Source: an uncultured Verrucomicrobiota bacterium
Lineage (GTDB): Bacteria; Verrucomicrobiota; Verrucomicrobiia; Opitutales; Opitutaceae
Direction: 5' to 3'
Assembly: GCA_913058185.1 (NCBI GenBank)
Contig: CAJXQX010000013.1
Location: forward strand, 1-64,000
Length of the DNA: 64,000 nucleotides
Of the stretch, positions 14,878-17,015 are shown one piece after another. A program made the position numbers and the translations under genes. How positions within the stretch are numbered: the stretch's first letter is position 1; each line of letters starts with the position of its first letter. The notes under the pieces are model-generated. The model searched no databases and was not told the origin of the DNA. It saw nothing but the letters and a program-made list of their open reading frames with translations.

Positions 14878-15255
14878 ATGACGTCTGCGGCCTATCTCCC
14901 ACTTCTCATTCAAGCAGTCCTCGCCCTTGGCGTGGGATTGACGATTTTGGCGGTCAACCGTTTGGCCCGCCAGCGGGTGAAGTCCTCAAGCCCGATCAAA
15001 GACACGCCGTATGAATGCGGAGTTAAGAGCGAAGGCATCGTTCACACCCGCTTTTCGGTGAAGTTTTATATCACCGCGATGCTCTTCCTCCTCTTCGATA
15101 TCGAGGTGGTATTCCTGATCCCTTGGACGTTTGTTTACCGCGATTTTCTGGCCAACAACATTGCCATTCTGTCGCCCATGATGTTCTTCCTTTTCGTGCT
15201 GGTGCTGGGGCTCTTCTACGAAGTGAAGAAGGGTGTCCTGAATTGGGAAAAGTAA
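14878..15255 (+). CDS. nuoA: NADH-quinone oxidoreductase subunit A
   Basis: This 125-aa membrane subunit of respiratory complex I has three transmembrane helices (about residues 5-27, 62-84, 92-115). The conserved loop TPYECGVKSEG, the cysteine-containing signature of NuoA/ND3, is followed by RFSVKFYITAMLFLLFDIEVVFLIPW. It stands alone: neither neighbour is a nuo gene, whereas nuoA usually leads a nuoA-N operon. It may therefore be a second copy or belong to a split complex I locus. Start ATG follows AAACGTCC with no Shine-Dalgarno. Confidence 0.93.
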   Translation: MTSAAYLPLLIQAVLALGVGLTILAVNRLARQRVKSSSPIKDTPYECGVKSEGIVHTRFSVKFYITAMLFLLFDIEVVFLIPWTFVYRDFLANNIAILSPMMFFLFVLVLGLFYEVKKGVLNWEK

Positions 15256-15285: not shown

Positions 15286-16644
15286 ATGCGGCTCGAAAAA
15301 CTCATCGCCCGAAGCCGCATCGTAGAACTACGTGGTTCCGACATGAAGTCGACGCTGGGCGAGATGCTCGACGTATGTGCGCAGCGGATTACGGGACTAA
15401 AACGTGACCCGTTGCTTCGTGGCTTGCTGGCGCGTGAGGCAACGATGACCACATATCTCGGACATGGGGTCTCCTTGCCTCATGTGCGGACCAAGCTGAG
15501 TCGGCGCTATCTGCTCGCCATTGGGCGCAGTCGTGACGGCGTTTCCCATGACGGTTCCGAGAGCGAGAAATCAAACCTCGTGATCATGTTGCTCGCGGAC
15601 GAGAAATCGCGGGATTACCTTCAGGTGCTCGCCTCACTGGCCCGAATGGTCAAAGAGCCGGAGTTGGTGCGTAGCTTGATCGATTCCGAAGATGTCGACC
15701 AGCTCTACGAGCGGTTGCTCGCAGGACTCAGCGGCATGCAGGTCCGACGCATCCCGACCAAGCAGAACAAAATGAACCGCCTAATGGTTCGCGAAGCGGA
15801 ACGGGTAGCCAAAGGAGCGGATTGCGACGCGATCGTGGTGATGGGCGATACCTTCACCGGGGGCATCGATGTCACGCGTTGGACGCCCAAGATTAAGTCG
15901 ATTCTCGTCACCAACAGCGTCCCTGACGGGTCGGATGCTTTCACCACGTTTGCCGAAGTGATTCAGGTGCGCTCATTTTCACCTCAGCGTTTGGCGCAGG
16001 TGCGCAGCGCAATCCTAGTGGCGCTGACTCGTGGGATCATTACTTTCACTGATCGCTTGTGTTGCCTTGGCGGAGTGTTGGGGAGCAATCAATTCGACAC
16101 GGTCGGAGTATTTGATGTGGAGCGTGAGTTTCAGACGCTGCTTACCGGTAAAACCGATCTGTTGCCCGACGACGTGAAGCCCGAGGTTTTTGAACGAGTC
16201 ATCGCCGTGGCGACCGAACTCGGAGTTGAAGGACGTGAAGGGAAACCCGTGGGGTGTCTGTTTGTCGTCGGAGGAACGCCTCAGGTGGAGAAATTCGTGA
16301 AGCCGTTAGTGCTGAATCCATTTTTCGGATATAAGGATGAAGACCGCAATATCCTCAATCCATTCATGGACGAAACCGTGAAGGAGTTCTCCACTATTGA
16401 CGGCGCTTTTGTTATCCAGGGTAACGGCGCGGTGAATTCCGCCGGTAGTCTCATTCAAGCGACTGACACCGAGCACATGTTACCGAGTGGTTTGGGCAGT
16501 CGTCATGCTGCTGCTGCTGCCATTAGTTTGGAGGCTCCCTGCATTGCCGTGGTCGTTTCGGCCAGCACCGGGCAGGTGTCACTATTCCGCCGTGGGGTTA
16601 TGCTGCCGCTGACAGAGAAAAAAGTGATCGCTTCGAAATCCTGA
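15286..16644 (+). CDS. PTS EIIA-type domain fused to DacZ-like diadenylate cyclase domain
   Basis: The 452-aa protein has three parts. Residues 1-150 form a fructose/nitrogen-type PTS EIIA domain, with GHGVSLPH ending in H66 at the place of the phosphorylated histidine. Residues about 165-300 (ADCDAIVVMGDTFTGGIDVTRW) resemble the pyruvate-kinase C-terminal (PK_C-like) domain found in archaeal DacZ. Residues about 300-445 form a DisA_N/DAC domain with DGA at 372-374 and SRHAA at 405-409. The DAC motif is of the RHxA type seen in archaeal DacZ rather than the bacterial RHR. It probably makes c-di-AMP from two ATP in the cytoplasm, with output set by EIIA phosphorylation. No signal or membrane helix is seen. 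It lies 30 bp after nuoA. Confidence 0.8.
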   Translation: MRLEKLIARSRIVELRGSDMKSTLGEMLDVCAQRITGLKRDPLLRGLLAREATMTTYLGHGVSLPHVRTKLSRRYLLAIGRSRDGVSHDGSESEKSNLVIMLLADEKSRDYLQVLASLARMVKEPELVRSLIDSEDVDQLYERLLAGLSGMQVRRIPTKQNKMNRLMVREAERVAKGADCDAIVVMGDTFTGGIDVTRWTPKIKSILVTNSVPDGSDAFTTFAEVIQVRSFSPQRLAQVRSAILVALTRGIITFTDRLCCLGGVLGSNQFDTVGVFDVEREFQTLLTGKTDLLPDDVKPEVFERVIAVATELGVEGREGKPVGCLFVVGGTPQVEKFVKPLVLNPFFGYKDEDRNILNPFMDETVKEFSTIDGAFVIQGNGAVNSAGSLIQATDTEHMLPSGLGSRHAAAAAISLEAPCIAVVVSASTGQVSLFRRGVMLPLTEKKVIASKS

Positions 16645-16982: not shown

Positions 16983-17015
16983 GACCGAAGTCCTCCGGGG
17001 CTTCGGTCTTTTTTT
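16983..17015 (+). terminator. Rho-independent terminator after rpmG
   Basis: GACCGAAG (16983-16990) and CTTCGGTC (17001-17008) form a perfect 8-bp stem with a 10-base loop. Seven T follow (17009-17015). It sits 28 bp after the L33 stop. Confidence 0.9.

Follow-up and report, generated by a model that had tools for sequence, protein, structure and literature searches.

A PTS EIIA domain fused to a predicted DacZ-like diadenylate cyclase in an order of Verrucomicrobiota

To our knowledge, the signals that raise or lower bacterial c-di-AMP are little understood for most classes of diadenylate cyclase (DAC). The locus described here is located in a 64,000-nucleotide stretch of DNA from an uncultured Verrucomicrobiota bacterium (the window) and encodes a protein in which a phosphotransferase system (PTS) EIIA domain, a DacZ_P domain and a DAC domain are joined. 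The protein raises the question of whether c-di-AMP synthesis is linked to the PTS, and the candidate input is the EIIA, a domain of known biochemistry.

Domain architecture and family membership

The sequence-only reading of the locus had proposed a 452-aa fusion of EIIA, a PK_C-like middle part and DAC, and a Pfam profile search bears this out (Table 1). The PTS_EIIA_2 match covers residues 37–144 (67.6 bits, E 1.5e-18), the DacZ_P match residues 163–284 (69.9 bits, E 2.1e-19) and the DAC match residues 313–438 (69.2 bits, E 3.1e-19), and all three exceed the Pfam curated cut-offs of 27–27.4 bits. The C-terminal region therefore does give the DisA_N match, and the PLPH66, DGA and SRHAA motifs lie where that reading had placed them. 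By sequence, the protein belongs with the diadenylate cyclases (DAC match over the cut-off, DGA and RH motifs), the DacZ/CdaZ superfamily (PK_C-fold domain N-terminal to DAC) and the PTS EIIA_2 proteins (PF00359 match and a phosphosite His in PLPH66).

Table 1. Coordinates of the cyclase gene, its domains and motifs, and flanking features, numbered along the window
Feature	Coordinates	Strand	Basis or remark
NuoA-like subunit (Oxidored_q4)	14878..15255	+	30 bp upstream of cyclase gene
EIIA-DacZ_P-DAC protein, probably a DacD-type diadenylate cyclase	15286..16644	+	452 aa, ATG start
EIIA_2 domain of the PTS with EIIA-Ntr fold, residues 1-148	15286..15729	+	Pfam PF00359, 1a6j
His66 codon	15481..15483	+	aligned with PH histidine of PtsN chains
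Tyr111 codon	15616..15618	+	His at this place in PtsN chains
DacZ_P domain (probable sensor with the fold of the pyruvate kinase C-terminus), residues 163-284	15772..16137	+	PF21755, structure
DAC (DisA_N) catalytic domain, residues 313-438	16222..16599	+	PF02457; CdaA, DisA structures
DGA motif, residues 372-374	16399..16407	+	alignment of 157 rows
SRHAA motif (RHxA), residues 405-409	16498..16512	+	alignment of 157 rows
Terminator-like hairpin then T run	16983..17008	+	about 340 bp past stop codon

The best NCBIfam match is the DacZ model NF041371, which supports the DacZ-like character assigned earlier to the DAC domain; the score of 111.9 bits lies under the equivalog cut-off of 430. Like archaeal DacZ/CdaZ, the window protein features a PK_C-type domain preceding DAC, and it differs from these proteins by the additional N-terminal EIIA domain. 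The DAC fold and the DGA and RH motifs are shared with CdaA/DacA and DisA. However, the scores stay below the equivalog cut-offs for CdaA (TIGR00159, 30.7 bits vs 188.8) and DisA (NF010009, 21 bits vs 201), and the GXRHRXA and SEET motifs of CdaA/DacA read GSRHAAA and SAST in the window protein. The EIIA domain shares its fold and PH phosphosite with PtsN/EIIA-Ntr, whereas its fusion to a cyclase and the presence of Tyr111 in place of a PtsN His set it apart, and the PtsN equivalog TIGR01419 is matched at 42.2 bits vs a cut-off of 138.7.

AlphaFold2 models, which were built with 29 relatives and are of medium confidence, agree with these assignments. The whole-protein model has a mean pLDDT of 71.6 and a pTM of 0.44, at which the relative placement of the domains is not to be read from the model, and a second model of residues 155–452 has a mean pLDDT of 74.8. 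In the whole-protein model, residues 1–150 resemble EIIA-Ntr (1a6j) with Z 20.1 and rmsd 2.1 over 147 aligned positions. In the second model, the PK_C-like middle seen in the sequence-only reading is predicted to adopt the C-terminal fold of pyruvate kinase (6v74) with Z 13.2 and rmsd 3.0 over 116 aligned positions. The predicted DAC part matches CdaA-AMP 8c4n (Z 12.9, rmsd 3.8, 130 aligned) as well as DisA structures. The EIIA part further scores Z 12–15 against cytosolic domains from human anion exchangers; this likeness was taken as a shared fold, and kinship was rejected.

The active-site residues of the DAC domain are strongly conserved in an alignment of 157 rows, consisting of 156 proteins from genomes of the order and the window protein. 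Asp372, Gly373, Arg406, His407 and Ser425 are invariant in 157/157 rows, residue 409 is Ala in 155/157, and residue 427, the counterpart of the second Glu in the SEET motif of CdaA, is Ser in 155/157. More variation is found at residue 374 (Ala in 138, Gly in 9, Cys in 8, Ser in 2) and residue 408 (Ala in 123, Ser in 18, Thr in 8). In Leptospira CdaA (PMC12974146), the D172A (DGA) and R203A (GXRHRXA) mutations each kill activity, and S222A leaves a reduced conversion efficiency (47.5 ± 8.1%).

The EIIA-DAC class appears to correspond to DacD, a class already in print, with which the taxonomy of the relatives agrees. A 2013 review by Corrigan and Gruendling reportedly gave DacD an EIIA domain. 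The class is named in a 2019 paper (PMC6741144), which lists five members, all from Opitutae/Verrucomicrobia and including Lacunisphaera limnophila, traces the classes to Corrigan and Gruendling 2013 and places some bacterial relatives with DacZ. Relatives of the window protein share this taxonomic range, and one of them, from Lacunisphaera sp. (L332), is 61% identical over residues 1–449. The terms "EIIA" and "phosphotransferase" do not occur in the main text of PMC6741144, and titles, abstracts and term counts of the papers searched gave no pointer to an EIIA-DAC fusion in print, nor did the texts consulted contain a test of the DacD EIIA; the article "All DACs in a row" (Galperin 2023) may describe the fusion, and a review (PMC7288161) depicts the most frequent DAC architectures. 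Pfam already annotates DacZ_P as a "probable sensor domain". Since the DacD class is published and DacZ_P is in Pfam, this kind of protein is already known.

Distribution and the predicted c-di-AMP system of the order

The order was taken as Opitutales by inference from the named relatives, which, among the matches listed, are mostly Opitutaceae/Opitutae of Verrucomicrobiota. Of the 177 genomes examined from the order, 158 carry a DAC gene, four of them in two or more copies, and 143 of the 156 aligned DAC proteins (the window's own row left out) have an EIIA domain and a frame of 430–540 aa. The EIIA-DacZ_P-DAC protein is the usual diadenylate cyclase of the order, and the earlier view that an EIIA domain is absent from the bacterial synthases of c-di-AMP is not supported. 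By hmmscan, all three domains are found in 30/30 proteins of a set comprising the window protein and 29 relatives (A2), and in a second set of the window protein and 15 proteins from across the order (A1) EIIA and DAC are found in 16/16 and DacZ_P in 15/16. The frequency of the DAC gene in the order and the recurrence of the domains in both sets rule out a unique fusion and, equally, a chimera or assembly artefact. In the phylum, DacZ_P was found in 46/288 genomes, of which 41 belong to Opitutales. Public genomes contain at least 542 stretches that encode relatives, as counted with two peptide patterns by which a single gene may count twice (80 loci were kept), and the architecture is thus more than chance. 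No viral relative was found.

The EIIA domain is lacking in 13 of the 156 proteins, three of which are cut by contig ends. Three of the EIIA-less proteins occur in genomes with EI; two are contig-end cuts (G325, G415) and the other is a different DAC (G323). The eight EIIA-less proteins of families f80 and f81 have both ends on the contig and are natural EIIA-less variants. These DAC proteins are about 290–350 aa long and occur in reduced genomes (L103, L120, L131, L143, L168, L192, L220, L221). A different DAC protein, with frames of 402–438 aa and a DAC score above 108 bits, is found in four f68 genomes (G363, G334, G346, G313; L032–L035), in three of which it coexists with the EIIA-DAC type.

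The check for a separate disA or cdaA proposed in the sequence-only reading was carried out, and a search of the window's genome found no DAC other than the EIIA-DacZ_P-DAC protein. PgpH degrades c-di-AMP, and its 7TM domain (PF07698) was found in 157 of the 177 genomes of the order, including that of the window. Among the 136 genomes that are at least 90% complete, DAC and PF07698 occur together in 120, whereas 9 have neither, 3 have DAC only and 4 have PF07698 only (Fisher p 4e-9). Seven of the nine genomes with neither belong to family f3, so the pattern amounts to about three independent co-losses. The f3 genomes without a match to DAC or PF07698 are G102, G336, G377, G388, G396 and G429 (g19) and G357 (g189), and these genomes retain EI and HPr. 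Signalling by c-di-AMP has apparently been lost as a whole in them. The window's genome also encodes a 335-aa DHH-DHHA1 protein that may act as a second phosphodiesterase. Three of its frames contain TrkA_C domains and are possible receptors. Under strict filters, the c-di-AMP riboswitch RF00379 was found in 7/156 genomes of the order (L337–L343) and not in that of the window.

PTS partners and residue 66

The window's genome encodes one copy of EI, an HPr with GIHARPA and NGKSIMGL motifs, and HprK. The Pfam matches of this EI are confined to its three canonical domains, a point of difference from the PtsN/EIIA-Ntr system. In a search confined to the PTS_EIIA_2 family, the cyclase protein is the sole match in this genome. 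Because EI, HPr and HprK are present and the EIIA_2 domain is the only one, the PTS relay plausibly ends on this cyclase. The cyclase EIIA is the sole EIIA_2 domain in 27 of 52 sampled genomes of the order, that of the window included, and 23 of these have EI. One of the 23 is G311 (f64), which has Tyr66, EI and no other EIIA_2 match. A separate EIIA_2 protein is carried by two f3 genomes, G149, in which the DAC protein is His-less, and G102, which has no DAC, and this fits a division of labour, to which G311 is a counter-example.

Of the 144 alignment rows that bear an EIIA domain, 116 have His66, always preceded by Pro65 (116/116), and 28 do not. Residue 111 is Tyr in 133/144 rows, and a canonical EIIA from a related genome has a His at the matching position, which we take to be the second active-site His of PtsN. 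The replacement of this PtsN His by Tyr111 implies that the transfer chemistry may differ. The column entropy is 1.83 bits for EIIA, 1.78 for DacZ_P and 0.98 for DAC. His66 is replaced in 12 EIIA-bearing rows from genomes that have EI and HPr; five belong to f64 (Tyr), six to genus g24 of f3 (Ser, Cys, Asn) and one to f75 (Tyr). The HPr proteins examined in f64 and g24 have HARPA in 6/6. Conversely, His66 is retained in 14 rows from genomes where EI was not found.

The raw counts for the 156 proteins are His in 101, another residue in 12 and no EIIA in 3 where EI is present, and 16, 16 and 8, respectively, where EI is absent. Two of the EI-absent rows counted as His (G369, G399) lack an EIIA domain, the His there being an artefact of the alignment. 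The corrected counts for 143 EIIA-bearing rows give His66 in 101/113 with EI vs 14/30 without, where many genomes are incomplete assemblies and an absent EI can be a gap. On a tree built with FastTree from the DacZ_P-DAC part of 155 rows, after removal of two short ones, EI and His66 change the same way in 1.6 pairs and in opposite ways in 0.5, with 4.9 pairs unchanged, which is not significant. The reverse pairing (His66 against EI) and the pairing of HPr with His66 are not significant either, and tight co-evolution of His66 and EI is not claimed, the independent pairs on the tree being few. Among the genomes at least 90% complete, the presence of EI is unrelated to that of DAC (p 0.69). Direct coupling through His66 phosphorylation, as proposed in the sequence-only reading, is a putative mechanism.

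Family f82 differs in its residue 66 and in its PTS genes. Its genomes are 0.7–1.1 Mb, and EI was not found in any of the ten that bear DAC. Residue 66 is Tyr in 8/8 DAC rows of g184 of this family. In five f82 genomes (L133, L145, L152, L170, L206; G331, G343, G353, G371, G417) the gene that immediately follows DAC, in the same orientation and after a gap of 19–42 nt, is hprK. A sixth f82 genome (G425) has hprK at contig base 422 and no DAC was found in it, and no hprK match was obtained in the three other Tyr66 genomes of g184 (G362, G383 and G392). The Arg of the HARPA motif of HPr supports His phosphorylation; it is replaced in 6/6 f82 HPr proteins examined (HATPA in four, HAIPA, HTAPA), whereas HARPA is kept in 13/13 of the others examined. 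The Ser of NGKSIMGL is retained in f82, and the motif is exact in 4/6. These features suggest that the f82 cyclase could be connected to the Ser-P branch and not the His-P branch. The pattern is confined to one clade and so counts as one event.

Possible mechanism and genomic context

In the proposed mechanism, the DAC domain would make c-di-AMP from two ATP, as its family and the conservation of its active site suggest, and a PgpH-type protein would presumably remove it. The N-terminal EIIA would be the input through which the EI, HPr and HprK encoded alongside it in this genome are linked to the cyclase. In the simplest case HPr~P would phosphorylate His66, and the phosphorylated and unphosphorylated EIIA would set DAC activity differently. 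DacZ_P, located between EIIA and DAC, could relay the signal or add a small-molecule signal of its own; ligands noted for the PK_C fold are FBP, in pyruvate kinase, and FMN, in a protein from archaea (PMC6741144). The protein would carry two stacked sensors with relatives in glycolysis, an EIIA for the PEP-driven relay and an allosteric domain of the pyruvate kinase type. On balance we judge it somewhat probable from sequence that this is the sole and active DAC of the cell and that its EIIA senses the state of the PTS through phosphorylation, binding of HPr or both.

An obligatory phospho-switch is disfavoured by the losses of His66, the His66 rows without EI, the mismatch of EI and DAC, the non-significant tree test and Tyr111. 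The EIIA could instead be mainly a protein-docking sensor, in which HPr, HPr-Ser-P or some other partner would dock on the unphosphorylated domain, while phosphorylation of the His would be dispensable or would not occur. This would account for lineages in which the EIIA stays and His66 is replaced, as in f64 (5/5), g24 of f3 (6/6), g184 of f82 (8/8), f83 (5/6) and f67 (3/9), for the prevalence of Tyr111, and for the hprK genes next to DAC in EI-less f82 genomes whose HPr has lost the HARPA Arg and kept the Ser. It is also in line with E. coli, in which unphosphorylated PtsN binds TrkA and KdpD (PMC7900238). However, His66 is retained in most EIIA-bearing rows, the HPr of f64 and g24 still has HARPA, three Tyr66 genomes gave no hprK match, and the hprK adjacency belongs to one clade and could be a single accidental rearrangement in reduced genomes. 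We regard docking as the main function as rather unlikely, in favour of an EIIA that would read the PTS state by either route.

It is less probable still, and in our judgement quite improbable, that the EIIA is the decaying remnant of an old fusion, with regulation passing through DacZ_P or absent. The eight complete f80 and f81 proteins that lack EIIA and the higher column entropy of EIIA relative to DAC speak for this, but the domain is conserved about as well as DacZ_P, it is present in 144 of 157 rows with three of the 13 exceptions being contig-end cuts, and it is the only EIIA_2 domain in about half of the sampled genomes (27/52). It is very improbable that the DAC domain has lost its catalytic activity or forms a different product. 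The Ala at the third position of the RHR motif and the SAST reading of SEET would permit it, whereas the DG, RH and SEET-type Ser residues are invariant, the gene co-occurs with PF07698, no other DAC was found in the window's genome, and archaeal DacZ, whose model is the best NCBIfam match, is reported to be active (PMC6741144). Returning to the reading of an active cyclase with a PTS-responsive EIIA, a more specific version would have a regulatory PTS relay that ends on the cyclase in most of the order, together with a Tyr66 EIIA that was rewired to HprK/HPr-Ser-P in f82; as a joint claim, this is tentative and has a low probability.

If the first part of this joint claim holds, the PEP/pyruvate ratio would set c-di-AMP through EI, HPr and EIIA, perhaps together with a metabolite on the pyruvate-kinase-like domain. 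The likely output is K+/osmotic homeostasis, which elsewhere is governed independently by EIIA-Ntr (PtsN), in Proteobacteria, and by c-di-AMP, in many other bacteria (PMC7900238, PMC13104625). The physical joining of an EIIA-Ntr-type domain and a c-di-AMP synthase would let a single protein tie carbon or energy state to the control of osmotic balance. With EI, HPr and HprK identified in the same genome, the question reduces to a short in vitro experiment, and natural variants are at hand in lineages without EI, HPr, HprK or His66, or with no EIIA at all.

The genomic neighbourhood of the cyclase gene was compared in 147 of the 157 cases, the ten others being those that could not be parsed. A nuoA-like gene, for complex I subunit A, is the commonest neighbour (69/147) and in 65/147 immediately precedes the cyclase gene in the same orientation; next come a DUF362-like gene (39/147) and an Mrp-type ATPase gene (23/147), so the context does not point to the pathway. 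The terminator-like hairpin listed in Table 1 is weak evidence of a terminator, as 3 such hairpins were found in the region vs 4.9 expected from shuffles. At Rfam gathering scores, the matches in the 64-kb window are two tRNAs only.
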